Shown piece after piece: positions 35,746 to 64,000 of a stretch of DNA of 64,000 nucleotides. Position 1 is the first letter of the stretch, and every line of letters begins with the position of its first letter. Made by a program: the position numbers and the translations under genes. This DNA comes from Astropecten irregularis (lineage: Eukaryota; Echinodermata; Asteroidea; Paxillosida; Astropectinidae). The notes below the pieces were generated by a model. It was not told the DNA's origin. It saw nothing but the letters and a program-made list of their open reading frames with translations, and searched no databases. The stretch is from positions 17,405,217 to 17,469,216 of the forward strand of contig OZ020246.1 of NCBI GenBank assembly GCA_963971285.1, given 5' to 3'.

Positions 35746-35756
35746 TTCCCAGGTTG
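35733..35756. repeat. 24-bp perfect palindrome abutting the gap
   Basis: CAACCTGGGAAC is followed directly by its exact inverse GTTCCCAGGTTG, and then by N. The first SINE copy continues differently after GGGAACG, so here the sequence folds back on itself. Confidence 0.9.
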
Positions 35757-38524: not shown

Positions 38525-38905
38525 GTCTGAGAGCTAGCCACATAAGATTCCACCTAATTTTACCCGAACCCATTAAAGTTGCTTAGGTTGTCCATGTGAT
38601 TCAGAGGTCAGCCTGGCCCCAGAGGTTGGACCTTGACCGCTGACCCCCTTGAAAATGCCCCCAGGACAGGTTATTTCAACCCATCGTACCCACTAAACAA
38701 TATTTGTCAAAACAAAGTAGTATAATAGCACATCACACACAAAAACTGACTAAATATCTGGCTGGGAATGTGAGGTCAGACCACCAGCAAAGTGCCTCCA
38801 AGCGCGCCCTGAACTGAATCACATGGACAACCTAAGCAACTTTAAGGGGTCATGCCTTCTGGGTAAATAAAATGGGTTGAAATCTTATGTGGCTAGCTCT
38901 CAGAC
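38525..38905. mobile_element. 381-bp MITE, copy B
   Basis: Same ends as 34,591-34,971; part of the large duplication rather than an independent insertion. Confidence 0.85.
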
Positions 38906-39381
38906 TGTAAGGGATGTCTCAGTCAGAGTTGTCACTGCTTGAAAAAAAATTGCCATATTAAATCAACTGAAGTCTCTTAAAAATTCACAATAATTGACAA
39001 TTTTCAGGAAATAAATATTGCGAACAATGAAATTAATTAATAGTATATAATGAATAACCTATAGCCTAAAATTATCTCTCTAAAGATTTTGGTTATAAAA
39101 GTTTAATTAATTAAAAAAAAGTAATATACAAAATGCAGAGACAACACTTGCTACATAAGGCCGCTCTGATTTGCATTCTGGTCAATTTAATTAAGATTGA
39201 GGTGATCACCACATGGATTGTCACGATATGCTTAATATATGATTAATTGTTGAATACATTAATTTATTGTATGTGTCAAGGGATGATACGGAATGATTAA
39301 AAGGTCAAACCAGCTGCTCAGTCTGATATCTGACAAAGTTTTTATTTCTTAGGTTCCGTGTGTCTCCGGCATTATTTAAAT

Positions 39382-39980
39382 TCATGTAAATCGTTTTACG
39401 CAGTTTTTTTCAGTGTCCCACACGGAGGAGTAGTATTCCAATCTGGGATTTGTATATACATATAGTTGCCTTGACCAATTTTGGCGACAGCTGTACAGGT
39501 TTCTAAGTAGGAGACCGCGCGAAAACTGTTGGCTTTGGGTTGCGGTTTTATCTACGTGATCTGCGCAGTTGAATTTATTGTTGAATTCGACGCCAAGATA
39601 GGTGTGGTTTGCAACAGAGTTTAAGTTATTCCCATTCACATTGTATTGAGTATGGAGGATTGGAGGGGCTGATCCGTTTGTGAGTGGTGTGCATCACGTG
39701 GCATTTGTCGATGTTGAACTTCATCTGACATTTAGACTCCCAGCTACATGTTGAACTTCATCTGACATTTAGAATCCCAGCTTCACTTGAAGTGTATCGA
39801 TATCATTTTGCAGTGTCGTTCTGTCGGTTAGGTCTTTAACCTTTACGATATATAATGCAGTCGTCAGCGAAAAGACGTACTTCACGGGATTCAATTCCCC
39901 GAGGGAGATCACTTATATCAAGTATGAACAGTAATTATGGGGCCAAGACGGTGACCTGTGGGACACCCGTGTCACGAGCT
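39382..39980 (-). pseudogene. Degenerate LINE reverse-transcriptase fragment
   Basis: The minus strand at 39,639-39,382 encodes MNGNNLNSVANHTYLGVEFN, NKFNCADHVDKTA and NPRLEYYSSVWD. This is the 'YLGV.....W..H...........L.RNL........Y....RP.LEY.S.VWDP' region after the reverse-transcriptase core in animal LINEs. Upstream (39,980 to 39,640) other frames show 'MKFNIDKCHVMH' and 'DLTDRTTLQNDIDTLQ'. Several frameshifts and stops, including a small internal repeat of GTTGAACTTCATCTGACATT (39,712/39,752), show it is dead. Confidence 0.75.
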
Positions 39981-40590
39981 CAGGTGACACCGGCCTAGTA
40001 ATACAAAAAGCAGAAGTATTTTTTAATTTAAAATGTGGGTTTTCGAGATATATTTTTAAAAATGCCTATGAATTTATTTCCATTTCTTTGACAAAAACCA
40101 AAGTGATAATTATTACCTTTAAACGTTTTTGTCGTTGCCTTTGTATCATGTTTAAAAATCAGTTATGTATGTACAAAAAAAGGAAGGGGGAGAAAGCTCA
40201 AAGTGACCATCCAAGTTTTTGAGACTCCGAGATATTTATCTCGAAAAGACGTCTGTCTGAGATATCGCACCTCGGAAACACGTCTTTCCGTGAAGGGAAA
40301 TTGGCGTTCTTTATGCACTCGTTGGTTTGAATGCGTCAATATACATCTACTTCAAGCCTGGATAATAATCTATCTGCTGATGAAATAAATTAAATTTCAA
40401 AATCCGCTTTGCAGAACTGTCAAACGCCGAGGCTGTAGTTGCATTTTGGAGGTATCAATAATTATGTTTAGTCTGGTGATGTTGTTGTCCTTGCAACAGT
40501 AATATTGTCTACATAACACATATCCTTCTGGGGGACAATCTTGAAAGAATCAGACATGAACTTATTTCTTTACAGTGGGACAAATCCCCC
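39981..40590. other. Non-coding, with a partial TTAA-MITE end
   Basis: ACAAAAACCAAAGTGATAAT then TATTACCTTTAA near 40,091-40,122 resembles the right end of the TTAA-bounded MITE family. No gene recognised. Confidence 0.45.
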
Positions 40591-40760
40591 TAATAGCGCT
40601 CCGCACTTGCGCATAGCACCGGATCTCAGACGAACATTGCAACCATGCAAACGTGCGTGTGGGTGCACGTGCATGTACACTACGTGTGTGAGACAATGTT
40701 AGTCTGACCATGGTCTGACATCCGGCGATTTTGTGACGTCATTAGTGCGGAGCGCTATTA
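40591..40760. mobile_element. 170-bp MITE
   Basis: The ends TAATAGCGCTCCGCACT and AGTGCGGAGCGCTATTA are perfect inverted copies (17 bp). The interior carries CGGATCTCAGAC/GTCTGACATCCG as a second pair. Non-coding. Confidence 0.85.
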
Positions 40761-41689
40761 TCCGTTGCGCGGACGATTTGCGGCACGTACAATAAAAGGA
40801 ATTTGCATTGTTGACAACATTAGGAGATACGTGTAATAACAATGAGCATTATTATAGTCACTGTCTGTATAAATTTCCTTATTTACAATTCCTTCCGCAA
40901 GCACTGCCGACGAGAGAGAGAATCATTCCCTTGGTCGTATATGCGCTATTCACGGTGGTCAGTCGGGTGGAAATTCACGACGTGTTTAAAATGGTTGCAA
41001 TTGACTAACTTGATATGCGGTAAGTAGTACACAGTCATGTAATATAAGGTTGCATAGTTGTTGGTTAATGATGTATAGGTCTCGCCCTTTTTTCTGACTT
41101 GGGTAACAAGATATGGGATGCTGACCGGCAATAGGCCCTACCTCCAACGCAGGCTAAGAACACACCTACTCGCCTTCGTTGCATTTGACTATACTTTAGT
41201 TTGGCTGTGGCCGCCGTATCGTACCGGATGGCGAACCGCTCTGAATTGAAATAACTGCAATGTCTGGTTGGCTGTGTGTAGGGGGAGTTACTATACGGAA
41301 GCTGGATACATGCGAGTCTTTGGCAGCGATGAATCCTGGTTGAGGTTGTGACATTGGACTCCCCACTGTCGAGACCCGAGTCCAATCGAGCGCCGGTATT
41401 CCCCATTAAGGTAAGGGTTACTTTAAAGGATAAAGACAATAAAAACAACTTTTTGTAAAGAGACGTAGGCCTACCTAAACATACCTTTACATGGTGTCAC
41501 CTACATTATGAGTAAGGTTAAATTTGTGGAAAGAGGGCAGGGCTTTGATTTTTGAGGGAAATTATGGAATAAAGACGGTAACGAAGATGCCATTTTTGTT
41601 CGGATGCACGGATAGATGGCCGAAGACGAGAATAACAGCCTACTAATAGCCTAGTTTCTGCTCAAAATGTGACGTTGAAAAATGTGTTT
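40761..41689. other. Non-coding DNA between MITE and satellite
   Basis: Somewhat GC-richer than the surroundings at 41,130-41,410. Short open frames on both strands show no family resemblance. No gene assigned. Confidence 0.4.
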
Positions 41690-42441
41690 GTAAACCTGAA
41701 ATGGGCCCACTTAGTGTAGTATGTGATGATTTATAGATCATGCGGCATTATTCTCTGTGTATTATGAATATGGCAGCGCGCTGTCAAGTCGTACAATCTC
41801 ATCACGATCTTTTCAGTCTACCTTTAGATTTCTAGGGCAAAATGAGCAAAATTCCAATTACACGAGTCTTTTTATTTTCAGTCTAGATCAGACATCATGT
41901 GTATTTAAACCTGAAATTCCAACACGTAGTGAAATATGAGATAATTTATATATCATGATGCATCGTTCTCTTACACGCGCTGTCAAATCCTATATTTTGA
42001 ACACGATCTTTGCAATCTGCCTGCTAGTTTCTAGGGGGCAACCTGAGGAAAATTCCAATTACACGAGTCTTTTTTTTTTCAGTGTAGATCGATCTGAATT
42101 TCTGAACCTGAAGTCGCCCTGCATAGCGAAATCCGTAATGATTTATATATCACGCAAAACGGTTCTACACTGTATGTGTATTGGCAGCGCGCGGTCAAAT
42201 TCTATATTTTTTAACACGATCTTTGAAATCTGCCTGCTCATTTCTGTGGCAAACTCAGGAAAAACAAAATTACACATGTCTTTTTATTTTCAGTCTAGAT
42301 CATAGATCTGAATTTTTGAAACTGTAGTCGCCCTGCTTAGCGAAATCTGTAATGATTTATATATCATGTGATGACGTTCTACACTGTATGTGTATCATAT
42401 ATGACAGCGCGCTGTCGAATCCTATATTTTGAGCACGATCT
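41690..42441 (+). repeat. Satellite array edge: diverged monomers
   Basis: Three to four monomers recognisable by AACCTGAA...CTTAG..., the 'TTTTTATTTTCAG' block and GGCAGCGCGC. They carry many differences and indels from the internal consensus (for example GGGCAACCTGAGGAAAATTC). Divergence falls steadily toward 42,442, as usual at satellite borders. Confidence 0.85.
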
Positions 42442-44876
42442 TTGGAATCTGCCTGCTCATTTCTGGGGCAAACTCAGGAAAAACAAAATTACACGTGTCA
42501 TTTTATTTTCAGTGTAGATCATATATCTGAATTTTTGAACCTGAAGTCGCCCTGCTTAGCGAAATCTGCAATGTTTTATAAATCACGTTATGACGTGCTA
42601 CACTGTATGTGTATTATAATAATTATGGCAGCACGCAGTCTAATCCTATATTTTGAACCCGATCTTTGAAAACTGCCTGCTCATTTCTGAGGGGAAATCC
42701 AGGAAAAACAAAATTACACGTGTCTTTTTATTTTCAGTGTAGATCATATATCTGAATTTTTGAACCTGAAGTCGCCCTGCTTAGCGAAATCTGCAATGTT
42801 TTATAAATCACGTTATGACGTGCTACACTGTATGTGTATTATAATATGGCAGCACCCAGTCTAATCCTATATTTTGAACCCGATCTTTGAAAATTGCCTG
42901 CTCATTTCTGGGGAAAATTCAGGAAAAACAAAATTACACGTGTCTTTTTATTTTCAGTGTAGATCATATATCTGAATTTTTGAACCTGAAGTCGCCCTGC
43001 TTAGCGAAATCTGCATTGTTTTATAAATCACGTTATGACGTGCTACACTGTATGTGTATTATAATATGGCAGCACGCAGTCTAATCCTATATTTTGAACC
43101 CGATCTTTGAAAACTGCCTGCTCATTTCTGGGGAAAATTCAGGAAACACAAAATTACACGTGTCTTTTTATTTTCAGTGTAGATCATATATCTGAATTTT
43201 TGAACCTGAAGTCGCCCTGCTTAGCGAAATCTGTAATGTTTTATAAATCACGTTATCACGTGCTAAACTGTTTTATAAATCACGTTATGACGTGCTACAC
43301 TGTATGTGTATTATAATATGGCAGCACGCAGTCTCATCCTATATTTTGAACCCGATCTTTGAAAATTGCCTGCTCATTTCTGGGGGAAATTCAGGAAAAA
43401 CAAAATTACACGTGTCTTTTTATTTTCAGTGTAGATCATATATCTGAATTTTTGAACCTGAAGTCGCCCTGCTTAGCGAAATCTGCATTGTTTTATAAAT
43501 CACGTTATGACGTGCTACACTGTATGTGTATTATAATATGGCAGCACGCAGTCTAATCCTATATTTTGAACCCGATCTTTGAAAACTGCCTGCTCATTTT
43601 TGGGGAAAATTCAGGAAAAACAAAATTACACGTGTCTTTTTATTTTCAGTGTAGATCATATATCTGAATTTTTTAACCTGAAGTCGCCCTGCTTAGCGAA
43701 ATCTGCAATGTTTTATAATTCACGTTATGACGTGCTACACTGTATGTGTATTATAATATGGCAGCACGCAGTCTAATCCTATATTTTGAACCCGATCTTT
43801 GAAAACTGCCTGCTCATTTCTGGGGAAAATTCAGGAAAAACAAAATTACACGTGTCTTTTTATTTTCAGTGTAGATCATATGTCTGAATTTTTGAACCTG
43901 AAGTCGCCCTGCTTAGCGAAATCTGCAATGTTTTATAAATCAAGTTATGACGTGCTACACTGTATGTGTATTATAATAATTATCGCAGCACGCAGTCTAA
44001 TCCAATATTTTAAATCCGATCTTTGAAAACTCCCTGCTCATTTCTGGGGAAAATTCATGAAAAACAAAATTACACGTGTCTTTTTATTTTCAGTGTAGAT
44101 CATATATCTGAATTTTTGAACCTGAAGTCGCCCTGCTTAGCGAAATCTGCAATGTTTTATAAATCACGTTATGACGTGCTACACCGTATGTGTATTATAA
44201 TATGGCAGCACGCAGTCTTATCCTATATTTTGAACCCGATCTTTGAAAACTGCCTGCTCATTTCTGGGGAAAATTCAGGAAAAACTAAATTACACGTGTC
44301 TTTTTATTTTCAGTGTAGATCATATATCTGAATTTTTTAACCTGAAGTCGCCCTGCTTAGCGAAATCTGCAATGTTTTATAATTCACGTTATGACGTGCT
44401 ACACTTTATGTGTATTATAATATGGCAGCACGCAGTCTAATCCTATATTTTGAACCCGATCTTTGAAAACTGCCTGCTCATTTCTGGGGAAAATTCAGGA
44501 AAAACAAAATTACACGTGTCTTTTTATTTTCAGTGTAGATCATATATCTGAATTTTTGAACATGAAGTCGCCCTGCTTAGCGAAATCTGCAATGTTTTAT
44601 AAATCACGTTATGACTTGCTACACTGTATGTGTATTATAATATGGCAGCACGCAGTCTAATCCTATATTTTGAACCCGATCTTTGAAAACTGCCTGCTCA
44701 TTTCTGGGGAAAATTCAGGAAAAACAAAATTACACGTGTCTTTTTATTTTTGAACCTGAAGTCGCCCTGCTTAGCGAAATCTGCAATGTTTTATAAATCA
44801 CGTTATGACGTGCTACACTATAGATGTATTGTAATATGGCAGCACGGAGTCTAATCCTATATTTTGAGCACGATCT
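42442..44876 (+). repeat. Higher-order unit 1 (2,435 bp, 11 monomers)
   Basis: Monomer lengths in order: 224, 221, 220, 252, 220, 220, 224, 220, 220, 220, 194. The same order and the same private variants recur from 47,784, and with one insertion from 44,877. Confidence 0.88.
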
Positions 44877-47783
44877 TTGGAATCTGCCTGCTCATTTCTG
44901 GGGCAAACTCAGGAAAAACAAAATTACACGTGTCATTTTATTTTCAGTGTAGATCATATATCTGAATTTTTGAACCTGAAGTCGCCCTGCTTAGCGAAAT
45001 CTGCAATGTTTTATAAATCACGTTATGACGTGCTACACTGTATGTGTATTATAATAATTATGGCAGCACGCAGTCTAATCCTATATTTTGAACCCGATCT
45101 TTGAAAACTGCCTGCTCATTTCTGAGGGGAAATCCAGGAAAAACAAAATTACACGTGTCTTTTTATTTTCAGTGTAGATCATATATCTGAATTTTTGAAC
45201 CTGAAGTCGCCCTGCTTAGCGAAATCTGCAATGTTTTATAAATCACGTTATGACGTGCTACACTGTATGTGTATTATAATATGGCAGCACCCAGTCTAAT
45301 CCTATATTTTGAACCCGATCTTTGAAAATTGCCTGCTCATTTCTGGGGAAAATTCAGGAAAAACAAAATTACACGTGTCTTTTTATTTTCAGTGTAGATC
45401 ATATATCTGAATTTTTGAACCTGAAGTCGCCCTGCTTAGCGAAATCTGCATTGTTTTATAAATCACGTTATGACGTGCTACACTGTATGTGTATTATAAT
45501 ATGGCAGCACGCAGTCTAATCCTATATTTTGAACCCGATCTTTGAAAACTGCCTGCTCATTTCTGGGGAAAATTCAGGAAACACAAAATTACACGTGTCT
45601 TTTTATTTTCAGTGTAGATCATATATCTGAATTTTTGAACCTGAAGTCGCCCTGCTTAGCGAAATCTGTAATGTTTTATAAATCACGTTATCACGTGCTA
45701 AACTGTTTTATAAATCACGTTATGACGTGCTACACTGTATGTGTATTATAATATGGCAGCACGCAGTCTAATCCTATATTTTGAACCCGATCTTTGAAAA
45801 TTGCCTGCTCATTTCTGGGGGAAATTCAGGAAAAACAAAATTACACGTGTCTTTTTATTTTCAGTGTAGATCATATATCTGAATTTTTGAACCTGAAGTC
45901 GCCCTGCTTAGCGAAATCTGCATTGTTTTATAAATCACGTTATGACGTGCTACACTGTATGTGTATTATAATATGGCAGCACGCAGTCTAATCCTATATT
46001 TTGAACCCGATCTTTGAAAACTGCCTGCTCATTTCTGGGGAAAATTCAGGAAACACAAAATTACACGTGTCTTTTTATTTTCAGTGTAGATCATATATCT
46101 GAATTTTTGAACCTGAAGTCGCCCTGCTTAGCGAAATCTGTAATGTTTTATAAATCACGTTATCACGTGCTAAACTGTTTTATAAATCACGTTATGACGT
46201 GCTACACTGTATGTGTATTATAATATGGCAGCACGCAGTCTCATCCTATATTTTGAACCCGATCTTTGAAAATTGCCTGCTCATTTCTGGGGGAAATTCA
46301 GGAAAAACAAAATTACACGTGTCTTTTTATTTTCAGTGTAGATCATATATCTGAATTTTTGAACCTGAAGTCGCCCTGCTTAGCGAAATCTGCATTGTTT
46401 TATAAATCACGTTATGACGTGCTACACTGTATGTGTATTATAATATGGCAGCACGCAGTCTAATCCTATATTTTGAACCCGATCTTTGAAAACTGCCTGC
46501 TCATTTTTGGGGAAAATTCAGGAAAAACAAAATTACACGTGTCTTTTTATTTTCAGTGTAGATCATATATCTGAATTTTTTAACCTGAAGTCGCCCTGCT
46601 TAGCGAAATCTGCAATGTTTTATAATTCACGTTATGACGTGCTACACTGTATGTGTATTATAATATGGCAGCACGCAGTCTAATCCTATATTTTGAACCC
46701 GATCTTTGAAAACTGCCTGCTCATTTCTGGGGAAAATTCAGGAAAAACAAAATTACACGTGTCTTTTTATTTTCAGTGTAGATCATATGTCTGAATTTTT
46801 GAACCTGAAGTCGCCCTGCTTAGCGAAATCTGCAATGTTTTATAAATCAAGTTATGACGTGCTACACTGTATGTGTATTATAATAATTATCGCAGCACGC
46901 AGTCTAATCCAATATTTTAAATCCGATCTTTGAAAACTCCCTGCTCATTTCTGGGGAAAATTCATGAAAAACAAAATTACACGTGTCTTTTTATTTTCAG
47001 TGTAGATCATATATCTGAATTTTTGAACCTGAAGTCGCCCTGCTTAGCGAAATCTGCAATGTTTTATAAATCACGTTATGACGTGCTACACCGTATGTGT
47101 ATTATAATATGGCAGCACGCAGTCTTATCCTATATTTTGAACCCGATCTTTGAAAACTGCCTGCTCATTTCTGGGGAAAATTCAGGAAAAACAAAATTAC
47201 ACGTGTCTTTTTATTTTCAGTGTAGATCATATATCTGAATTTTTTAACCTGAAGTCGCCCTGCTTAGCGAAATCTGCAATGTTTTATAATTCACGTTATG
47301 ACGTGCTACACTTTATGTGTATTATAATATGGCAGCACGCAGTCTAATCCTATATTTTGAACCCGATCTTTGAAAACTGCCTGCTCATTTCTGGGGAAAA
47401 TTCAGGAAAAACAAAATTACACGTGTCTTTTTATTTTCAGTGTAGATCATATATCTGAATTTTTGAACATGAAGTCGCCCTGCTTAGCGAAATCTGCAAT
47501 GTTTTATAAATCACGTTATGACTTGCTACACTGTATGTGTATTATAATATGGCAGCACGCAGTCTAATCCTATATTTTGAACCCGATCTTTGAAAACTGC
47601 CTGCTCATTTCTGGGGAAAATTCAGGAAAAACAAAATTACACGTGTCTTTTTATTTTTGAACCTGAAGTCGCCCTGCTTAGCGAAATCTGCAATGTTTTA
47701 TAAATCACGTTATGACGTGCTACACTATAGATGTATTGTAATATGGCAGCACGGAGTCTAATCCTATATTTTGAGCACGATCT
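44877..47783 (+). repeat. Higher-order unit 2 (2,907 bp, 13 monomers)
   Basis: As unit 1, but the 252+220 bp pair (45,542-46,013) is repeated at 46,014-46,485, adding exactly 472 bp. Confidence 0.88.
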
Positions 47784-50218
47784 TTGGAATCTGCCTGCTC
47801 ATTTCTGGGGCAAACTCAGGAAAAACAAAATTACACGTGTCATTTTATTTTCAGTGTAGATCATATATCTGAATTTTTGAACCTGAAGTCGCCCTGCTTA
47901 GCGAAATCTGCAATGTTTTATAAATCACGTTATGACGTGCTACACTGTATGTGTATTATAATAATTATGGCAGCACGCAGTCTAATCCTATATTTTGAAC
48001 CCGATCTTTGAAAACTGCCTGCTCATTTCTGAGGGGAAATCCAGGAAAAACAAAATTACACGTGTCTTTTTATTTTCAGTGAAGATCATATATCTGAATT
48101 TTTGAACCTGAAGTCGCCCTGCTTAGCGAAATCTGCAATGTTTTATAAATCACGTTATGACGTGCTACACTGTATGTGTATTATAATATGGCAGCACCCA
48201 GTCTAATCCTATATTTTGAACCCGATCTTTGAAAATTGCCTGCTCATTTCTGGGGAAAATTCAGGAAAAACAAAATTACACGTGTCTTTTTATTTTCAGT
48301 GTAGATCATATATCTGAATTTTTGAACCTGAAGTCGCCCTGCTTAGCGAAATCTGCATTGTTTTATAAATCACGTTATGACGTGCTACACTGTATGTGTA
48401 TTATAATATGGCAGCACGCAGTCTAATCCTATATTTTGAACCCGATCTTTGAAAACTGCCTGCTCATTTCTGGGGAAAATTCAGGAAACACAAAATTACA
48501 CGTGTCTTTTTATTTTCAGTGTAGATCATATATCTGAATTTTTGAACCTGAAGTCGCCCTGCTTAGCGAAATCTGTAATGTTTTATAAATCACGTTATCA
48601 CGTGCTAAACTGTTTTATAAATCACGTTATGACGTGCTACACTGTATGTGTATTATAATATGGCAGCACGCAGTCTAATCCTATATTTTGAACCCGATCT
48701 TTGAAAATTGCCTGCTCATTTCTGGGGGAAATTCAGGAAAAACAAAATTACACGTGTCTTTTTATTTTCAGTGTAGATCATATATCTGAATTTTTGAACC
48801 TGAAGTCGCCCTGCTTAGCGAAATCTGCATTGTTTTATAAATCACGTTATGACGTGCTACACTGTATGTGTATTATAATATGGCAGCACGCAGTCTAATC
48901 CTATATTTTGAACCCGATCTTTGAAAACTGCCTGCTCATTTTTGGGGAAAATTCAGGAAAAACAAAATTACACGTGTCTTTTTATTTTCAGTGTAGATCA
49001 TATATCTGAATTTTTTAACCTGAAGTCGCCCTGCTTAGCGAAATCTGCAATGTTTTATAATTCACGTTATGACGTGCTACACTGTATGTGTATTATAATA
49101 TGGCAGCACGCAGTCTAATCCTATATTTTGAACCCGATCTTTGAAAACTGCCTGCTCATTTCTGGGGAAAATTCAGGAAAAACAAAATTACACGTGTCTT
49201 TTTATTTTCAGTGTAGATCATATGTCTGAATTTTTGAACCTGAAGTCGCCCTGCTTAGCGAAATCTGCAATGTTTTATAAATCAAGTTATGACGTGCTAC
49301 ACTGTATGTGTATTATAATAATTATCGCAGCACGCAGTCTAATCCAATATTTTAAATCCGATCTTTGAAAACTCCCTGCTCATTTCTGGGGAAAATTCAG
49401 GAAAAACAAAATTACACGTGTCTTTTTATTTTCAGTGTAGATCATATATCTGAATTTTTGAACCTGAAGTCGCCCTGCTTAGCGAAATCTGCAATGTTTT
49501 ATAAATCACGTTATGACGTGCTACACCGTATGTGTATTATAATATGGCAGCACGCAGTCTTATCCTATATTTTGAACCCGATCTTTGAAAACTGCCTGCT
49601 CATTTCTGGGGAAAATTCAGGAAAAACAAAATTACACGTGTCTTTTTATTTTCAGTGTAGATCATATATCTGAATTTTTTAACCTGAAGTCGCCCTGCTT
49701 AGCGAAATCTGCAATGTTTTATAATTCACGTTATGACGTGCTACACTTTATGTGTATTATAATATGGCAGCACGCAGTCTAATCCTATATTTTGAACCCG
49801 ATCTTTGAAAACTGCCTGCTCATTTCTGGGGAAAATTCAGGAAAAACAAAATTACACGTGTCTTTTTATTTTCAGTGTAGATCATATATCTGAATTTTTG
49901 AACATGAAGTCGCCCTGCTTAGCGAAATCTGCAATGTTTTATAAATCACGTTATGACTTGCTACACTGTATGTGTATTATAATATGGCAGCACGCAGTCT
50001 AATCCTATATTTTGAACCCGATCTTTGAAAACTGCCTGCTCATTTCTGGGGAAAATTCAGGAAAAACAAAATTACACGTGTCTTTTTATTTTTGAACCTG
50101 AAGTCGCCCTGCTTAGCGAAATCTGCAATGTTTTATAAATCACGTTATGACGTGCTACACTATAGATGTATTGTAATATGGCAGCACGGAGTCTAATCCT
50201 ATATTTTGAACCCGATCT
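47784..50218 (+). repeat. Higher-order unit 3 (2,435 bp, 11 monomers)
   Basis: Same length and monomer order as unit 1, with only scattered single-base differences (for example GTGAAGATC near 48,080). Confidence 0.88.
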
Positions 50219-51323
50219 TTGAAAACTGCCTGCTCATTTCTGGGGAAAATTTAGGAAAAACAAAATTACACGTGTCTTTTTATTTTCAGTGTAGATCATA
50301 TATCTGAATTTTTGAACCTCAAGTCGCCCTGCTTAGCGAAATCTGTAATGTTTTATAAATCACGTTATGACGTGCTACAATGTATGTGTATTATAATATG
50401 GCAACACGCAGTCTAATCCTATATTTTGAACCCGATCTTTGAAAACTGCCTGCTCATTTCTGGGGAAAATTCAGGAAAAACAAAATTACACGTGTCTTTT
50501 TATTTTCAGTGTAGATCATATGTCTGAATTTTTGAACCTCAAGTCGCCCTGCTTAGCGAAATCTGCAATGTTTTATAAATCACGTTATGACGTGCTACAC
50601 TGTATGTGTATTATAATATGGCAGCACGCAGTCTAATCCTATATTTTGAACCCGATCTTTGAAAACTGCCTGCTCATTTCTGGGGAAAATTCAGGAAACA
50701 CAAAATTACACGTGTCTTTTTATTTTCAGTGTAGATCATATATCTGAATTTTTGAACCTGAAGTCGCCCTGCTTAGCGAAATCTGCAATGTTTTATAAAT
50801 CAAGTTATGACGTGCTACACTGTATGTGTATTATAATAATTATCGCAGCACGCAGTCTAATCCTATATTTTGAACCCGATCTTTGAAAACCGCCTGCTCA
50901 TTTCTGAGGGGAAATTCAGGAAAAAATAAATTACACGTGTCTTTTTATTTTCAGTGTAGATCATATATCTGAATTTTTGAACCTGAAGTCGCCCTGCTTA
51001 GCGAAATCTGCAATGTTTTATAAATCAAGTTATGACGTGCTACACTGTATGTGTATTATAATATGGCAGGACGCAGTCTAATCCTATATTTTGAACCCGA
51101 TCTTTGAAAATTGCCTGCTCATTTCTGGGGAAAATTCAGGAAAAACAAAATTACACGTGTCTTTTTATTTTCAGTGTAGATCATATATCTGAATTTTTGA
51201 ACCTGAAGTCGCCCTGCTTAGCGAAATCTGCATTGTTTTATAAATCACGTTATGACGTGCTACACTGTATGTGTATTATAATATGGCAGCACGCAGTCTA
51301 ATCCTATATTTTGAACCCGATCT

Positions 51324-53918
51324 TTGAAAACTGCCTGCTCATTTCTGGGGAAAATTCAGGAAACACAAAATTACACGTGTCTTTTTATTTTCAGTGTAGA
51401 TCATATATCTGAATTTTTGAACCTGAAGTCGCCCTGCTTAGCGAAATCTGCAATGTTTTATAAATCAAGTTATGACGTGCTACACTGTATGTGTATTATA
51501 ATAATTATCGCAGCACGCAGTCTAATCCAATATTTTAAATCCGATCTTTGAAAACTCCCTGCTCATTTCTGGGGAAAATTCATGAAAAACAAAATTACAC
51601 GTGTCTTTTATTTTCAGTGTAGATCATATATCTGAATTTTTGAACCTGAAGTCGCCCTGCTTAGCGAAATCTGCAATGTTTTATAAATCACGTTATGACG
51701 TGCTACACCGTATGTGTATTATAATATGGCAGCACGCAGTCTTATCCTATATTTTGAACCCGATCTTTGAAAACTGCCTGCTCATTTCTGGGGAAAATTC
51801 AGGAAAAACAAAATTACACGTGTCTTTTTATTTTCAGTGTAGATCATATATCTGAATTTTTTAACCTGAAGTCGCCCTGCTTAGCGAAATCTGCAATGTT
51901 TTATAATTCACGTTATGACGTGCTACACTTTATGTGTATTATAATATGGCAGCACGCAGTCTAATCCTATATTTTGAACCCGATCTTTGAAAACTGCCTG
52001 CTCATTTCTGGGGAAAATTCAGGAAAAACAAAATTACACGTGTCTTTTTATTTTCAGTGTAGATCATATGTCTGAATTTTTGAACCTCAAGTCGCCCTGC
52101 TTAGCGAAAACTGTCATGTTTTATAAATCACGTTATGACGTGCTACACTGTATGTGTATTATAATATGGCAGCACGCAGTCTAATCCTATATTTTGAACC
52201 CGATCTTTGAAAACTGCCTGCTCATTTCTGGGGAAAATTCAGGAAAAACAAAATTACACGTGTCTTTTTATTTTCAGTGTAGATCATATATCTGAATTTT
52301 TGAACATGAAGTCGCCCTGCTTAGCGAAATCTGCAATGTTTTATAAATCACGTTATGACTTGCTACACTGTATGTGTATTATAATATGGCAGCACGCAGT
52401 CTAATCCTATATTTTGAACCCGATCTTTGAAAACTGCCTGCTCATTTCTGGGGAAAATTCAGGAAAAACAAAATTACACGTGTCTTTTTATTTTTGAACC
52501 TGAAGTCGCCCTGCTTAGCGAAATCTGCAATGTTTTATAAATCACGTTATGACGTGCTACACTATAGATGTATTGTAATATGGCAGCACGGAGTCTAATC
52601 CTATATTTTGAACCCGATCTTTGAAAACTGCCTGCTCATTTCTGGGGAAAATTCAGGAAAAACAAAATTACACGTGTCTTTTTATTTTCAGTGTAGATCA
52701 TATATCTGAATTTTTGAACCTGAAGTCGCCCTGCTTAGCGAAATCTGCAATGTTTTATAAATCAAGTTATGACGTGCTACACTGTATGTGTATTATAATA
52801 ATTATCGCAGCACGCAGTCTAATCCAATATTTTAAATCCGATCTTTGAAAACTCCCTGCTCATTTCTGGGGAAAATTCAGGAAAAACAAAATTACACGTG
52901 TCTTTTTATTTTCAGTGTAGATCATATATCTGAATTTTTGAACCTGAAGTCGCCCTGCTTAGCGAAATCTGCAATGTTTTATAAATCACGTTATGACGTG
53001 CTACACCGTATGTGTATTATAATATGGCAGCACGCAGTCTTATCCTATATTTTGAACCCGATCTTTGAAAACTGCCTGCTCATTTCTGGGGAAAATTCAG
53101 GAAAAACAAAATTACACGTGTCTTTTTATTTTCAGTGTAGATCATATATCTGAATTTTTTAACCTGAAGTCGCCCTGCTTAGCGAAATCTGCAATGTTTT
53201 ATAATTCACGTTATGACGTGCTACACTTTATGTGTATTATAATATGGCAGCACGCAGTCTAATCCTATATTTTGAACCCGATCTTTGAAAACTGCCTGCT
53301 CATTTCTGGGGAAAATTCAGGAAAAACAAAATTACACGTGTCTTTTTATTTTCAGTGTAGATCATATGTCTGAATTTTTGAACCTCAAGTCGCCCTGCTT
53401 AGCGAAAACTGTCATGTTTTATAAATCACGTTATGACGTGCTACACTGTATGTGTATTATAATATGGCAGCACGCAGTCTAATCCTATATTTTGAACCCG
53501 ATCTTTGAAAACTGCCTGCTCATTTCTGGGGAAAATTCAGGAAAAACAAAATTACACGTGTCTTTTTATTTTCAGTGTAGATCATATATCTGAATTTTTG
53601 AACATGAAGTCGCCCTGCTTAGCGAAATCTGCAATGTTTTATAAATCACGTTATGACTTGCTACACTGTATGTGTATTATAATATGGCAGCACGCAGTCT
53701 AATCCTATATTTTGAACCCGATCTTTGAAAACTGCCTGCTCATTTCTGGGGAAAATTCAGGAAAAACAAAATTACACGTGTCTTTTTATTTTTGAACCTG
53801 AAGTCGCCCTGCTTAGCGAAATCTGCAATGTTTTATAAATCACGTTATGACGTGCTACACTATAGATGTATTGTAATATGGCAGCACGGAGTCTAATCCT
53901 ATATTTTGAACCCGATCT
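51324..53918 (+). repeat. Two 6-monomer units (1,297 and 1,298 bp)
   Basis: 51,324-52,620 and 52,621-53,918 share the order 224, 220, 220, 220, 220, 194 and the same variants (for example GAAAACTGTCATG and GAACATGAAG). The 1-bp difference is a missing T in the poly-T at about 51,605. Confidence 0.85.
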
Positions 53919-54578
53919 TTGAAAACTGCCTGCTCATTTCTGGGGAAAATTCAGGAAAAACAAAATTACACGTGTCTTTTTATTTTCAGTGTAGATCATA
54001 TATCTGAATTTTTGAACCTCAAGTCGCCCTGCTTAGCGAAATCTGTAATGTTTTATAAATCACGTTATGACGTGCTACAATGTATGTGTATTATAATATG
54101 GCAACACGCAGTCTAATCCTATATTTTGAACCCGATCTTTGAAAACTGCCTGCTCATTTCTGGGGAAAATGCAGGAAAAACTAAATTACACGTGTCTTTT
54201 TATTTTCAGTGTAGATCATATATCTGAATTTTTGAACCTCAAGTCGCCCTGCTTAGCGAAATCTGTAATGTTTTATAAATCACGTTATGACGTGCTAAAA
54301 TGTATGTGTATTATAATATGGCAACACGCAGTCTAATCCTATATTTTGAACCCGATCTTTGAAAACTGCCTGCTCATTTCTGGGGAAAATTCAGGAAAAA
54401 CAAAATTACACGTGTCTTTTTATTTTCAGTGTAGATCGTATATCTGAATTTTTGAACCTCAAGTCGCCCTGCTTAGCGAAATCTGCAATGTTTTATAAAT
54501 CACGTTATGACGTGCTACACTGTATGTGTATTATAATATGGCAGCACGCAGTCTAATCCTATATTTTGAACCCGATCT

Positions 54579-55458
54579 TTGAAAACCGCCTGCTCATTTC
54601 TGGGGAAAATTCAGGAAAAACAAAATTACACGTGTCTTTTAATTTTCAGTGTAGATCATATATCTGAATTTTTGAACCTGAAGTCTCCCTACTTAGCGAA
54701 ATCTGCAATGTTTTATGAATCACGTTATGACGTGCTACACTGTATGTGTATTATAATATGGCAGCACGCAGTCTAATCCTATATTTTGAACCCGATCTTT
54801 GAAAACTGCCTGCTCATTTCTGGGGAAAATTCAGGAAAAACAAAATTACACGTGTCTTTTTATTTTCAGTGTAGATCATATGTCTGAATTTTTGAACCTC
54901 AAGCCGCCCTGCTTTGCGAAAACTGTCATGTTTTATAAATCACGTTATGACGTGCTACACTGTATGTGTATTATAATATGGCAGCACGCAGTCTAATCCT
55001 ATATTTTGAACCCGATCTTTGAAAATTGCCTGCTCATTTCTGGGGGAAATTCAGGAAAAACAAAATTACACGTGTCTTTTAATTTTCAGTGTAGATCATA
55101 TATCTGAATTTTTGAACCTGAAGTCTCCCTACTTAGCGAAATCTGCAATGTTTTATGAATCACGTTATGACGTGCTACACTGTATGTGTATTATAATATG
55201 GCAGCACGCAGTCTAATCCTATATTTTGAACCCGATCTTTGAAAACTGCCTGCTCATTTCTGGGGAAAATTCAGGAAAAACAAAATTACACGTGTCTTTT
55301 TATTTTCAGTGTAGATCATATGTCTGAATTTTTGAACCTCAAGCCGCCCTGCTTTGCGAAAACTGTCATGTTTTATAAATCACGTTATGACGTGCTACAC
55401 TGTATGTGTATTATAATATGGCAGCACGCAGTCTAATCCTATATTTTGAACCCGATCT
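54579..55458 (+). repeat. Duplicated 440-bp dimer
   Basis: 54,579-55,018 and 55,019-55,458 share rare variants in the same positions: TCTCCCTACTTAGCG in the first monomer, AAGCCGCCCTGCTTTGCG in the second. Local dimer amplification. Confidence 0.8.
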
Positions 55459-58400
55459 TTGAAAATTGCCTGCTCATTTCTGGGGGAAATTCAGGAAAAA
55501 CAAAATTACACGTGTCTTTTTATTTTCAGTGTAGATCATATATCTGAATTGTTGAACCTGAAGTCGCCCTGCTTAGCGAAATCTGCATTGTTTTATAAAT
55601 CACGTTATGACGTGCTACACTGTATGTGTATTATAATATGGCAGCACGCAGTCTAATCCTATATTTTGAACCCGATCTTTGAAAACTGCCTGCTCATTTC
55701 TGGGGAAAATTCAGGAAAAACAAAATTACACGTGTCTTTTAATTTTCAGTGTAGATCATATATCTGAATTTGTGAACCTCAAGTCGCCCTGCTTAGCGAA
55801 ATCTGTAATGTTTTATAAAACACGTTATGACGTGCTACACTGTATGTGTATTATAATATGGCAGCACGCAGTCTAATCCTATATTTTGAACCCGATCTTT
55901 GAAAACTGCCTGCTCATTTCTGGGGAAAATTCAGGAAAAACAAAATTACACGTGTCTTTTTATTTTCAGTGTAGATCATATGTCTGAATTTTTGAACCTC
56001 AAGTCGCCCTGCTTAGCGAAAACTGTCATGTTTTATAAATCACGTTATGACGTGCTACACTGTATGTGTATTATAATATGGCAGCACGCAGTCTAATCCT
56101 ATATTTTGAACCCGATCTTTGAAAACTGCCTGCTCATTTCTGGGGAAAATTCAGGAAAAACAAAATTACACGTGTCTTTTTATTTTCAGTGTAGATCATA
56201 TATCTGAATTTTTGAACATGAAGTCGCCCTGCTTAGCGAAATCTGCAATGTTTTATAAATCACGTTATGACGTGCTACACTGTATGTGTATTATAATATG
56301 GCAGCACGCAGTCTAATCCTATATTTTGAACCCGATCTTTGAAAACTGCCTGCTCATTTCTGGGGAAAATTCAGGAAAAACAAAATTACACGTGTCTTTT
56401 TATTTTTGAACCTGAAGTCGCCCTGCTTAGCGAAATCTGCAATGTTTTATAAATCACGTTATGACGTGCTACACTATAGATGTATTGTAATATGGCAGCA
56501 CGCAGTCTAATCCTATATTTTGAACCCGATCTTTGAAAACTGCCTGCTCATTTCTGGGGAAAATTCAGGAAAAACAAAATTACACGTGTCTTTTTATTTT
56601 CAGTGTAGATCATATTTCTGAATTTTTGAACCTCAAGTCGCCCTGCATAGCGAAATCCGTAATGATTTATATATCACGCAAAACGGTTCTACACTGTATG
56701 TGTATTGGCAGCGCGCGGTCAAATTCTATATTTTTTAACACGATCTTTGAAATCTGCCTGCTCATTTCTGTGGCAAACTCAGGAAAAACAAAATTACACA
56801 TGTCTTTTTATTTTCAGTCTAGATCATAGATCTGAATTTTTGAAACTGTAGTCGCCCTGCTTAGCGAAATCTGTAATGATTTATATATCATGTGATGACG
56901 TTCTACACTGTATGTGTATCATATATGACAGCGCGCTGTCGAATCCTATATTTTGAGCACGATCTTTGGAATCTGCCTGCTCATTTCTGGGGCAAACTCA
57001 GGAAAAACAAAATTACACGTGTCATTTTATTTTCAGTGTAGATCATATATCTGAATTTTTGAACCTGAAGTCGCCCTGCTTAGCGAAATCTGCAATGTTT
57101 TATAAATCACGTTATGACGTGCTACACTGTATGTGTATTATAATAATTATGGCAGCACGCAGTCTAATCCTATATTTTGAACCCGATCTTTGAAAACTGC
57201 CTGCTCATTTCTGAGGGGAAATCCAGGAAAAACAAAATTACACGTGTCTTTTTATTTTCAGTGTAGATCATATATCTGAATTTTTGAACCTGAAGTCGCC
57301 CTGCTTAGCGAAATCTGCAATGTTTTATAAATCACGTTATGACGTGCTACACTGTATGTGTATTATAATATGGCAGCACCCAGTCTAATCCTATATTTTG
57401 AACCCGATCTTTGAAAATTGCCTGCTCATTTCTGGGGAAAATTCAGGAAAAACAAAATTACACGTGTCTTTTTATTTTCAGTGTAGATCATATATCTGAA
57501 GTTTTGAACCTGAAGTCGCCCTGCTTAGCGAAATCTGCATTGTTTTATAAATCACGTTATGACGTGCTACACTGTATGTGTATTATAATATGGCAGCACG
57601 CAGTCTAATCCTATATTTTGAACCCGATCTTTGAAAACTGCCTGCTCATTTCTGGGGAAAATTCAGGAAACACAAAATTACACGTGTCTTTTTATTTTCA
57701 GTGTAGATCATATATCTGAATTTTTGAACCTGAAGTCGCCCTGCTTAGCGAAATCTGCAATGTTTTATGAATCAAGTTATGACGTGCTACACTGTATGTG
57801 TATTATAATAATTATCGCAGCACGCAGTCTAATCCAATATTTTAAATCCGATCTTTGAAAACTCCCTGCTCATTTCTGGGGAAAATTCAGGAAAAACAAA
57901 ATTACACGTGTCTTTTTATTTTCAGTGTAGATCATATATCTGAATTTTTGAACCTGAAGTCGCCCTGCTTAGCGAAATCTGCAATGTTTTATAAATCACG
58001 TTATGACGTGCTACACCGTATGTGTATTATAATATGGCAGCACGCAGTCTTATCCTATATTTTGAACCCGATCTTTGAAAACTGCCTGCTCATTTCTGGG
58101 GAAAATTCAGGAAAAACAAAATTACACGTGTCTTTTTATTTTCAGTGTAGATCATATATCTGGATTTTTGAACCTGAAGTCGCCGTGCTTAGCGAAATCT
58201 GTAATGTTTTATAAATCACGTTATGACGTGCTAAACTGTTTTAAAAATCACGTTATGACGTGCTACACTGTATGTGTATTATAATATGGCAGCACGCAGT
58301 CTAATCCTATATTTTGAACCCGATCTTTGAAAATTGCCTGCTCATTTCTGGGGGAAATTCAGGAAAAACAAAATTACACGTGTCTTTTTATTTTCAGTGT

Positions 58401-58766
58401 AGATCATATATCTGAATTTTTGAACCTGAAGTCGCCCTGCTTAGCGAAATCTGCATTGTTTTATAAATCACGTTATGACGTGCTACACTGTATGTGTATT
58501 ATAATATGGCAGCACGCAGTCTAATCCTATATTTTGAACCCGATCTTTGAAAACTGCCTGCTCATTTTTGGGGGAAATTCAGGAAAAACAAAATTACACG
58601 TGTCTTTTTATTTTCAGTGTAGATCATATATCTGAATTTTTTAACCTGAAGTCGCCCTGCTTAGCGAAATCTGCAATGTTTTAGAATTCACGTTATGACG
58701 TGCTACACTGTATGTGTATTATAATATGGCAGCACGCAGTCTAATCCTATATTTTGAACCCGATCT

Positions 58767-61700
58767 TTGAAAACTGCCTGCTCATTTCTGGGGAAAATTC
58801 AGGAAAAACAAAATTACACGTGTCATTTTATTTTCAGTGTAGATCATATATCTGAATTTTTGAACCTGAAGTCGCCCTGCTTAGCGAAATCTGCAATGTT
58901 TTATAAATCACGTTATGACGTGCTACACTGTATGTGTATTATAATAATTATGGCAGCACGCAGTCTAATCCTATATTTTGAACCCGATCTTTGAAAACTG
59001 CCTGCTCATTTCTGAGGGGAAATCCAGGAAAAACAAAATTACACGTGTCTTTTTATTTTCAGTGTAGATCATATATCTGAATTTTTGAACCTGAAGTCGC
59101 CCTGCTTAGCGAAATCTGCAATGTTTTATAAATCACGTTATGACGTGCTACACTGTATGTGTATTATAATATGGCAGCACCCAGTCTAATCCTATATTTT
59201 GAACCCGATCTTTGAAAATTGCCTGCTCATTTCTGGGGAAAATTCAGGAAAAACAAAATTACACGTGTCTTTTTATTTTCAGTGTAGATCATATATCTGA
59301 ATTTTTGAACCTGAAGTCGCCCTGCTTAGCGAAATCTGCATTGTTTTATAAATCACGTTATGACGTGCTACACTGTATGTGTATTATAATATGGCAGCAC
59401 GCAGTCTAATCCTATATTTTGAACCCGATCTTTGAAAACTGCCTGCTCATTTCTGGGGAAAATTCAGGAAACACAAAATTACACGTGTCTTTTTATTTTC
59501 AGTGTAGATCATATATCTGAATTTTTGAACCTGAAGTCGCCCTGCTTAGCGAAATCTGCAATGTTTTATGAATCAAGTTATGACGTGCTACACCGTATGT
59601 GTATTATAATATGGCAGCACGCAGTCTTATCCTATATTTTGAACCCGATCTTTGAAAACTGCCTGCTCATTTCTGGGGAAAATTCAGGAAAAACAAAATT
59701 ACACGTGTCTTTTTATTTTCAGTGTAGATCATATATCTGAATTTTTGAACCTGAAGTCGCCGTGCTTAGCGAAATCTGTAATGTTTTATAAATCACGTTA
59801 TGACGTGCTAAACTGTTTTATAAATCACGTTATGACGTGCTACACTGTATGTGTATTATAATATGGCAGCACGCAGTCTAATCCTATATTTTGAACCCGA
59901 TCTTTGAAAATTGCCTGCTCATTTCTGGGGGAAATTCAGGAAAAACAAAATTACACGTGTCTTTTTATTTTCAGTGTAGATCATATATCTGAATTTTTGA
60001 ACCTGAAGTCGCCCTGCTTAGCGAAATCTGCATTGTTTTATAAATCACGTTATGACGTGCTACACTGTATGTGTATTATAATATGGCAGCACGCAGTCTA
60101 ATCCTATATTTTGAACCCGATCTTTGAAAACTGCCTGCTCATTTTTGGGGGAAATTCAGGAAAAACAAAATTACACGTGTCTTTTTATTTTCAGTGTAGA
60201 TCATATATCTGAAATTTTTAACCTGAAGTCGCCCTGCTTAGCGAAATCTGCAATGTTTTAGAATTCACGTTATGACGTGCTACACTGTATGTGTATTATA
60301 ATATGGCAGCACGCAGTCTAATCCTATATTTTGAACCCGATCTTTGAAAACTGCCTGCTCATTTCTGGGGAAAATTCAGGAAAAACAAAATTACACGTGT
60401 CATTTTATTTTCAGTGTAGATCATATATCTGAATTTTTGAACCTGAAGTCGCCCTGCTTAGCGAAATCTGCAATGTTTTATAAATCACGTTATGACGTGC
60501 TACACTGTATGTGTATTATAATAATTATGGCAGCACGCAGTCTAATCCTATATTTTGAACCCGATCTTTGAAAACTGCCTGCTCATTTCTGAGGGGAAAT
60601 CCAGGAAAAACAAAATTACACGTGTCTTTTTATTTTCAGTGTAGATCATATATCTGAATTTTTGAACCTGAAGTCGCCCTGCTTAGCGAAATCTGCAATG
60701 TTTTATAAATCACGTTATGACGTGCTACACTGTATGTGTATTATAATATGGCAGCACCCAGTCTAATCCTATATTTTGAACCCGATCTTTGAAAATTGCC
60801 TGCTCATTTCTGGGGAAAATTCAGGAAAAACAAAATTACACGTGTCTTTTTATTTTCAGTGTAGATCATATATCTGAATTTTTGAACCTGAAGTCGCCCT
60901 GCTTAGCGAAATCTGCATTGTTTTATAAATCACGTTATGACGTGCTACACTGTATGTGTATTATAATATGGCAGCACGCAGTCTAATCCTATATTTTGAA
61001 CCCGATCTTTGAAAACTGCCTGCTCATTTCTGGGGAAAATTCAGGAAACACAAAATTACACGTGTCTTTTTATTTTCAGTGTAGATCATATATCTGAATT
61101 TTTGAACCTGAAGTCGCCCTGCTTAGCGAAATCTGCAATGTTTTATGAATCAAGTTATGACGTGCTACACCGTATGTGTATTATAATATGGCAGCACGCA
61201 GTCTTATCCTATATTTTGAACCCGATCTTTGAAAACTGCCTGCTCATTTCTGGGGAAAATTCAGGAAAAACAAAATTACACGTGTCTTTTTATTTTCAGT
61301 GTAGATCATATATCTGAATTTTTGAACCTGAAGTCGCCGTGCTTAGCGAAATCTGTAATGTTTTATAAATCACGTTATGACGTGCTAAACTGTTTTATAA
61401 ATCACGTTATGACGTGCTACACTGTATGTGTATTATAATATGGCAGCACGCAGTCTAATCCTATATTTTGAACCCGATCTTTGAAAATTGCCTGCTCATT
61501 TCTGGGGGAAATTCAGGAAAAACAAAATTACACGTGTCTTTTTATTTTCAGTGTAGATCATATATCTGAATTTTTGAAGCTGAAGTCGCGCTGCTTAGCG
61601 AAATCTGCATTGTTTTATAAATCACGTTATGACGTGCTACACTGTATGTGTATTATAATATGGCAGCACGCAGTCTAATCCTATATTTTGAACCCGATCT

Positions 61701-61920
61701 TTGAAAACTGCCTGCTCATTTTTGGGGAAAATTCAGGAAAAACAAAATTACACGTGTCTTTTTATTTTCAGTGTAGATCATATATCTGAATTTTTTAACC
61801 TGAAGTCGCCCTGCTTAGCGAAATCTGCAATGTTTTAGAATTCACGTTATGACGTGCTACACTGTATGTGTATTATAATATGGCAGCACGCAGTCTAATC
61901 CTATATTTTGAACCCGATCT
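58767..61920 (+). repeat. Two 7-monomer units (1,577 bp each)
   Basis: 58,767-60,343 and 60,344-61,920 share monomer order 224, 221, 220, 220, 252, 220, 220, including one chimeric monomer. Confidence 0.85.
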
Positions 61921-64000
61921 TTGAAAACTGCCTGCTCATTTCTGGGGAAAATTCAGGAAAAACAAAATTACACGTGTCTTTTTATTTTCAGTGTAGATCA
62001 TATGTCTGAATTTTTGAACCTGAAGTCGCCCTGCTTAGCGAAATCTGCAATGTTTTATAAATCACGTTATGACGTGCTAGACTGTATGTGTATTATAATA
62101 TGGCAGCACGCAGTCTAATCCTATATTTTGAACCCGATCTTTGAAAACTGCCTGCTCATTTTTGGGGAAAATTCAGGAAAAACAAAATTACACGTGTCTT
62201 TTTATTTTCAGTGTAGATCATATATCTGAATTTTTTAACCTGAAGTCGCCCTGCTTAGCGAAATCTGCAATGTTTTAGAATTCACGTTATGACGTGCTAC
62301 ACTGTATGTGTATTATAATATGGCAGCACGCAGTCTAATCCTATATTTTGAACCCGATCTTTGAAAACTGCCTGCTCATTTCTGGGGAAAATTCAGGAAA
62401 AACAAAATTACACGTGTCATTTTATTTTCAGTGTAGATCATATATCTGAATTTTTGAACCTGAAGTCGCCCCGCTTAGCGAAATCTGCAATGTTTTATAA
62501 ATCACGTTATGACGTGCTACACTGTATGTGTATTATAATATGGCAGCACGCAGTCTAATCCTATATTTTGAACCCGATCTTTGAAAACTGCCTGCTCATT
62601 TCTTGGGAAAATTCAGGAAACACAAAATTACACGTGTCTTTTTATTGTCAGTGTAGATCATATATCTGAATTTTTGAACCTGAAGTCGCCCTGCTTAGCG
62701 AAATCTGCAATGTTTTATGAATCAAGTTATGACGTGCTACACTGTATGTGTATTATAATAATTATCGCAGCACGCAGTCTAATCCAATATTTTAAATCCG
62801 ATCTTTGAAAACTCCCTGCTCATTTCTGGGGAAAATTCAGGAAAAACAAAATTACACGTGTCTTTTTATTTTCAGTGTAGATCATATATCTGAATTTTTG
62901 AACCTGAAGTCGCCCTGCTTAGCGAAATCTGCAATGTTTTATAAATCACGTTATGACGTGCTACACCGTATGTGTATTATAATATGGCAGCACGCAGTCT
63001 TATCCTATATTTTGAACCCGATCTTTGAAAACTGCCTGCTCATTTCTGGGGAAAATTCAGGAAAAACAAAATTACACGTGTCTTTTTATTTTCAGTGTAG
63101 ATCATATATCTGGATTTTTGAACCTGAAGTCGCCGTGCTTAGCGAAATCTGTAATGTTTTATAAATCACGTTATGACGTGCTAAACTGTTTTATAAATCA
63201 CGTTATGACGTGCTACACTGTATGTGTATTATAATATGGCAGCACGCAGTCTAATCCTATATTTTGAACCCGATCTTTGAAAATTGCCTGCTCATTTCTG
63301 GGGGAAATTCAGGAAAAACAAAATTACACGTGTCTTTTTATTTTCAGTGTAGATCATATATCTGAATTTTTGAACCTGAAGTCGCCCTGCTTAGCGAAAT
63401 CTGCATTGTTTTATAAATCACGTTATGACGTGCTACACTGTATGTGTATTATAATATGGCAGCACGCAGTCTAATCCTATATTTTGAACCCGATCTTTGA
63501 AAACTGCCTGCTCATTTTTGGGGAAAATTCAGGAAAAACAAAATTACACGTGTCTTTTTATTTTCAGTGTAGATCATATATCTGAATTTTTTAACCTGAA
63601 GTCGCCCTGCTTAGCGAAATCTGCAATGTTTTATAAATCACGTTATGACGTGCTAGACTGTATGTGTATTATAATATGGCAGCACGCAGTCTAATCCTAT
63701 ATTTTGAACCCGATCTTTGAAAACTGCCTGCTCATTTTTGGGGAAAATTCAGGAAAAACAAAATTACACGTGTCTTTTTATTTTCAGTGTAGATCATATA
63801 TCTGAATTTTTTCACCTGAAGTCGCCCTGCTTAGCGAAATCTGCAATGTTTTAGAATTCACGTTATGACGTGCTACACTGTATGTGTATTATAATATGGC
63901 AGCACGCAGTCTAATCCTATATTTTGAACCCGATCTTTGAAAACTGCCTGCTCATTTCTGGGGAAAATTCAGGAAAAACAAAATTACACGTGTCATTTAA

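Follow-up and report, generated by a model that had tools for sequence, protein, structure and literature searches.

A 220-bp satellite array with local higher-order repeats and a graded left edge in the sea star Astropecten irregularis

Results

A 220-bp satellite array of about 47 kb

The window analyzed here is a stretch of 64,000 nucleotides from the sea star Astropecten irregularis (assembly GCA_963971285.1, contig C9, OZ020246.1, positions 17,405,217-17,469,216), which lies very probably on chromosome 3, and its main feature is part of a tandem array of a 220-bp satellite. The assembly holds 475.7 Mb in 168 contigs, and the genome is described as 475.80 Mb in 22 chromosomes (PMC11480709). 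Contigs are given below by chromosome (C1, chr1; C8, chr2; C9, chr3; C10, chr4; C11, chr5; C12, chr6; C15, chr8; C18, chr11; C22, chr15; C25, chr18; C27, chr19), with C19 called chr12 from contig order only. A preliminary description, made from the letters of the window alone, had proposed a 220-bp monomer arranged in several coexisting higher-order periods in a probable echinoderm. The source is an echinoderm, and the monomer was confirmed: self-comparison gave a match fraction of 0.735 at an offset of 220, and 160 of 209 monomers are exactly 220 bp long.

We found that degenerate monomers open the array at ~41,774, that mature monomers follow from ~42,402 and that the array ends at C9:17,493,974 (offset 88,758), a span of ~47 kb with no N. 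The previously proposed start of 42,442 is too late, and the array runs 24.8 kb past the window end. Segmentation over ~46 kb gave the 209 monomers, all in one orientation (one 434-bp interval was divided by hand), and 97 of them begin in the in-window part (42,402-64,000, plus strand). Besides the 220-bp majority, there are 12 monomers of 252 bp, 11 of 224 bp, 9 of 225 bp, 6 of 194 bp and 11 of other lengths, and the median difference between monomers is 7 changes per 220 (96.8% identity). With one monomer repeated head to tail at high copy over a long array, this is satellite DNA.

Higher-order repeats occur as local patches

Multi-monomer units in the array are more alike (99.5-100% identity) than the monomers within them (96.8% median), as in a satellite with higher-order repeats (HORs). 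In ungapped self-comparison, a 2,435-bp unit of 11 monomers is seen at 45,704-47,774, which matches the sequence 2,435 bp further on at 99.81%, and at 42,418-43,599 (99.92%). A 1,298-bp unit of 6 monomers matches at 100% over 51,606-52,721, a 1,577-bp unit of 7 monomers at 99.58% over 57,896-60,502, recurring at offset 1,576 from 61,842 and from 64,000, and an offset of 4,950 bp links 57,541-58,683 at 99.65%. All four had been noted in the preliminary description. We also found a 2,907-bp block of 13 monomers (42,797-46,034, 99.88%) and a 5,342-bp offset, the sum of 2,435 and 2,907, at 99.84% identity; neither is in the preliminary description. The proposed 440-bp dimer did not stand as a unit: it is a trace of 10 monomer pairs at lag 2 with 2 changes or fewer in the 209-monomer array, and ABAB order was seen only over about 54,489-55,369 (about four monomers).

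These units lie side by side on the plus strand. The 2,435-bp and 2,907-bp units form one patch at 42,572-50,088 (offsets 2,435, 2,907 and 5,342 at 99.8-99.9%), the 1,298-bp repeat occupies 51,606-54,019 as two copies identical through 1,116 bp, and the 1,577-bp patch runs from 57,896 to 64,000 and on past the window (offset 1,577/1,576 at 99.5-99.6%). Just ahead of this last patch the array repeats its left edge internally: 42,111-43,233 recurs at 56,635-57,757 (offset 14,524; 99.91% over 1,123 bp). Right of the window there are more patches, with offsets of 1,100, 1,540, 3,300 and 3,341 bp. Neither this internal copy nor these further patches had been noted earlier. No single HOR unit extends across most of the array. 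The periods do coexist, as the preliminary description held, but as local patches of a few adjacent copies and not as an array-wide unit. Counting as a block any run of at least 4 monomers with 2 differences or fewer each at a lag of up to 60, we found 18 blocks; when the monomer order was shuffled 500 times, the mean was 0.034 and no shuffle gave more than 2.

Three indel tags are private to the array

Identical monomers lie close together in the array. Identical pairs (0 differences) make up 2.5-2.7% of pairs at lags of 6-20, 0.2% at lags of 81-120 and none of 3,916 at lags of 121-208. The median distance from a monomer to its nearest relative is a lag of 11, whereas 300 permutations gave 32.8, and none of them less than 24.

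Three indel junctions mark the HOR units, all on the plus strand. Tag A is a 32-bp duplication that gives the 252-bp monomers at 43,237-48,645 (copies from 43,237; 45,672; 46,144; and 48,579); a 26-bp deletion gives the six 194-bp monomers at 44,593-56,443, and its ends have ATTTT in common, as judged by eye; tag B, a second 32-bp duplication, is carried by the 1,577-bp patch. Exact searches of the whole assembly found 4 copies of the tag A junction, 6 of the deletion and 7 of tag B, with 0 in reversed controls, and 17 of 17 fall in the present array (C9:17.448-17.477 Mb). The three tested tags are private to this array. Hence, the HORs arose and spread in place.

The left edge grades from a dispersed unit to the satellite

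Three degenerate monomers of 205, 203 and 220 bp (41,774-42,401, plus strand; the first two borders were placed by hand) form the left edge and are transitional between a dispersed unit of ~0.2 kb and the mature satellite. Against the mature consensus the first five monomers reach 72.4, 86.0, 89.9, 95.0 and 99.1% identity, and against the consensus of the dispersed unit 85.1, 84.5, 83.1, 79.7 and 79.3%.

The dispersed unit was found by a search with a lone match on chr2, which gave 71 matches and eight loci outside chr3, chr4, chr6, chr8 and chr12. Seven of the eight were fetched, the query locus included and the locus on contig C20 left out. At six of the seven, monomer-like sequence lies in non-tandem dispersed repeats within non-satellite sequence, as one unit, as two spaced units (locus L063) or as about one and a quarter (L065); these loci are on chr2 (twice), chr5, chr11, chr15 and chr19. 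Three of them have non-satellite flank in common, ~480 bp between L060 and L063 and ~260 bp with L066, whose fetched piece begins within the shared flank. Such monomer-like copies in dispersed repeats with a shared flank are what a seeded satellite should have. The 227-bp consensus of the dispersed unit (seven units, six loci) and the mature monomer share 79.4% identity, and no recognized transposon family was assigned to the dispersed unit. In a small tree built without the two outermost array monomers, the satellite of the seventh locus, on chr18, and the edge monomers fall into one group with the mature monomers (support 1.000), and the dispersed units stand outside it.

As separate observations on these loci, the shared flank of L060, L063 and L066 contains an imperfect inverted repeat of ~270 bp beside the dispersed unit, and L060 has a 44-bp direct repeat 824 bp apart, which hints at a composite element of ~0.82 kb.

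The left edge is shared with other arrays

The non-satellite left flank (38,979-41,700, plus strand) is co-duplicated, in whole or part, with array edges on chr3, chr4, chr6 and chr8, and it is found on C19 (inferred chr12) as well. Its pieces (positions 5980-8701 of a query covering window 33000-41700) match at 84-95% on C9, C10, C12, C15 and C19 among the matches listed. All nine other edges fetched (chr3, chr4, chr6 and chr8) have the degenerate edge monomers and some non-satellite flank in common with the present array. The shared flank consists of pieces of 79-96% identity whose length varies by site and which occur in both orientations; the match runs through the whole 3 kb compared at locus L053 on chr6 (92.4%), and at L061, also on chr6, the flank leads into the same degenerate monomers (84%). 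With the 861-bp left edge as query, the matches listed, part of 164, are all on chr3, chr4, chr6 and chr8.

The right end of the array is a different repeat, which abuts non-satellite DNA at the one other site read (on chr8, from among many listed), and the idea of a conserved right boundary was dropped on this ground. A module of ~5 kb lies on both sides of the array in the same orientation (window 27,018-32,434 and C9:17,495,884-17,501,914; pieces of 86-95%), and the part of it searched recurs on chr3, chr4, chr6, chr8 and chr12.

The satellite family is spread over large mid-chromosome regions

Across the whole assembly, a 24-bp core of the monomer has 13,354 forward and 2,237 reverse exact matches, 15,591 in total, with 0 for the reversed control; at 220 bp each this is 3.4 Mb, or 0.7% of the assembly. 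Of the 211 core sites in the present array, 170 match exactly. A 32-bp core with up to 3 mismatches gave 28,040 plus 15,926 matches (43,966; control 0), among them 203 sites in the present array and also one or two at each dispersed locus fetched. That the 43,966 loose matches are array monomers alone is ruled out by these dispersed loci, and the corresponding ~9.7 Mb (2%) is an upper figure in which arrays and dispersed units are mixed.

Among the matches listed, which seem to follow contig order, contigs C1-C8 have no exact 24-mer and one zero-mismatch 32-mer (C8:10,662,796), which is a dispersed unit; this no more than suggests that the satellite core is absent from chr1. Zero-mismatch 32-mers also occur at C9:14.440-14.441 Mb, beyond those among the matches listed, and the listing is therefore incomplete. 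With lone outer matches excluded, satellite ranges over 14.41-18.20 Mb on chr3, 7.85-21.06 Mb on chr4, 9.87-17.51 Mb on chr6 and 4.67-17.11 Mb on chr8, as judged from the best-scoring candidates and not from a full map. That only five chromosomes carry the satellite is ruled out by 801 bp of tandem satellite on chr18.

On chr3 itself, satellite occurs also at 18.19 Mb and from 14.41 Mb. In this second array (from 14.414 Mb) the core spacings are mostly 219 bp, with others of 207, 213, 215 and 221 bp, and at C9 14.493-14.499 Mb nine consecutive core matches are exactly 652 bp apart, a trimer-like spacing. Hence, the second array has its own periods, which differ from those of the present one.

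Sequences left of the array

About 33 kb from the array lie likely exons of a Rel-homology gene (8,668-9,230), with Pfam matches to RHD_dimer (E 1.7e-12) and RHD_DNA_bind (E 5e-05, under its curated cutoff). Just upstream of the Rel domains, in 7,143-9,230 (plus strand), is an open reading frame (ORF) without a Pfam match, in which 114 bp (38 codons) are duplicated in tandem at 7,601-7,828, 99% alike; this frame and the Rel-homology domains may belong to one gene. At 24,618-24,991 there is a 21-bp tandem repeat of 17.8 copies that is open in several frames on both strands. The Pfam search of ten ORFs also gave a weak match to DUF5352, under its cutoff, at 39.4-39.7 kb.

The sequences on the two sides of a 200-N gap (35,757-35,956) are copies of each other for several kb, at 98.7-99% identity (31,729-32,766 to 36,259-37,302 and 33,901-35,066 to 37,838-39,000). 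This looks like two haplotypes joined and not like a true duplication. A pair of long terminal repeats was considered for the match at 31.7-39.0 kb (offset 4.5 kb), and this was ruled out, as the duplication spans several kb on both gap sides. Adjoining the gap, 35,185-35,745 holds two tRNA-Thr (GGT) genes in a ~325-bp tandem unit, which recurs at ~98-99%, often in short tandem clusters, on chr1, chr2, chr4, chr15, chr19, contigs C20 and C29, and others.

Discussion

The present array is probably one member of a 220-bp satellite family that grew out of a dispersed unit and formed its HORs locally and in place, by ordinary satellite birth and growth. The ancestor of the monomer would be the ~0.2-kb unit still found singly within dispersed repeats on other chromosomes. 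A unit of this kind would have turned tandem, with its degenerate first monomers still marking the left edge; growth out of the dispersed unit is the simplest reading of the sequences, and the edge gradient is likely a fossil of satellite birth. The edge and some of its flank would then have been copied among chromosomes, through segmental duplication or ectopic exchange in large, repeat-rich, mid-chromosome domains. Within the array, blocks of ~6-15 monomers may have been duplicated by unequal exchange, break-induced replication or slippage into short-lived local HORs, and three indels would have been amplified with their blocks to 17 copies, with no exact copy in other arrays. A selected function of the HOR order is not needed, and nothing tested argues for one; a heterochromatic and mostly passive role is most likely, and a heterochromatic state of the wider domain is plausible.

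Several points weigh against this account. The dispersed units could be escapees from arrays instead of ancestors, with the direction of descent reversed, and the gradient alone does not polarize time. At the chr18 locus, the seventh fetched, tandem satellite of an older type runs through all 801 bases. Both the dispersed loci and the nine edge loci were taken from the best-scoring matches (the latter outside the window) and are not random samples. The junction searches were exact, so copies with a point change at the junction are missed, and privacy does not extend to a fourth tag: the 5-bp insertion seen in the 225-bp monomers, near the edge, has 8 copies here and 1 on chr8.

Other explanations of the array fared less well. 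A plain monomeric satellite in which a few chance matches mimic HORs is favored by a mean monomer difference that barely varies with lag (7.35-7.95), but the 18 blocks against a shuffled maximum of 2 refute this idea, to which we give practically no weight. That the HOR copies come from mis-assembled reads or from haplotypic duplication is very unlikely. The assembly is not fully phased, and its curators corrected 87 haplotypic duplications (PMC11480709); a probable residual one lies at the gap 6 kb left of the array, and distant copies, such as that at the 14,524-bp offset, exceed the mean read. However, there is no N from 35,957 to 200 kb past the window, the mean HiFi read of ~9.9 kb (22.66 Gb in 2.30 million reads; PMC11480709) is longer than the adjacent HOR pairs (up to ~6.1 kb), and the HOR copies differ by substitutions and indel tags. 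The left flank and the satellite might instead travel together as a mobile module, with the tandem repeats lying inside a transposon and the whole inserting at once, and the same edge and flank are indeed found at many sites, in both orientations, in pieces 79-96% identical. We consider this unlikely: the ten ORFs searched against Pfam have no transposase domain, the flank matches listed are confined to chr3, chr4, chr6, chr8 and chr12 with a shared length that varies by site, and the right end is a different repeat that abuts non-satellite DNA at the one other site read.

The preliminary description had also raised a centromeric block; in such a reading, the 220-bp family would bear CENP-A chromatin and the HORs would be the homogenized core of a functional centromere. 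The family is abundant (15,591 exact cores), its arrays lie mid-chromosome on several chromosomes, and one of them starts 14.414 Mb into the 28.81 Mb of chr3. It has been proposed that short dyads mark centromeres (PMC13081366), and the monomer at 43,489-43,708 folds as single-strand DNA somewhat better than its shuffles (z -2.45, with 3 of 200 at least as good, a modest excess), its fold having a CACGT/ACGTG hairpin. Nevertheless, the evidence makes a centromere at the present array improbable. Both flanks are free of the satellite core, over at least 42 kb on the left and 175 kb on the right, with the likely gene exons nearby, and the satellite is spread through up to ~13 Mb of one chromosome. 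Among the matches listed, chr1 and chr2 (77 Mb) have no exact 24-mer and only the one zero-mismatch 32-mer, the dispersed unit on chr2. A scan of both strands of the monomer consensus, taken doubled, found no CENP-B box at 2 changes or fewer.

Degenerate monomers also mark the array edge in human alpha-satellite. Further, human alpha-satellite HORs are, like those here, multi-monomer units repeated at near identity (PMC5615363), whereas in the present array each patch holds only a few adjacent copies, several periods share the 47 kb and no unit is array-wide, no CENP-B box was found in the monomer consensus, and the three tested markers are private to one array. Multi-level order had been called unusual outside primates; this does not hold, as HORs are listed in beetles, mouse, swine, bovids, horse, dog, elephant and insects (PMC5615363). 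The rye repeats pSc200 and pSc250 likewise form many arrays with heterogeneous monomer organization and have spread together with adjacent repeats, but they belong to plant subtelomeres, whereas the family here is mid-chromosome and its arrays have in common a degenerate edge that is related to a dispersed unit (PMC4857426). Beetle satellites resemble it as invertebrate repeats with HOR organization in large chromosome regions (PMC13081366, PMC5615363), although the major satellite of Tribolium madens makes up 33% of its genome and has macro-dyads (PMC13081366), versus at most about 2% and one monomer orientation here. A further related class is that of satellites seeded by transposable or dispersed elements (PMC5615363), with lone monomer copies in dispersed repeats and the outermost monomer closest to them, as here, but the present dispersed unit has no recognized transposon family assigned. 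Searches of open-access papers, made for sea-star and echinoderm satellites with HORs or links to centromeres, listed none on this satellite, on sea-star HORs or on sea-star centromere satellites. The 220-bp sequence thus adds a new family to a known kind of satellite, and its edge and tags can be read.

A more specific version of growth from a dispersed unit is possible, though we hold it only tentatively: the left edge, with dispersed unit, intermediate and mature monomers, and its flank may be a portable seed that was copied to many mid-chromosome sites, with each array growing rightwards alone and gaining HORs private to it and a monomer length of its own. In that case, satellite arrays of this sea star would form by repeated outgrowth from one copied edge and not by exchange between mature arrays. 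In the present array, private indels act as lineage tags for local HOR formation, and the edge seems to preserve the transition of a dispersed repeat into a satellite; how satellites originate and how HORs start may therefore be tested within a single species, using the available HiFi reads and the genomes of relatives.

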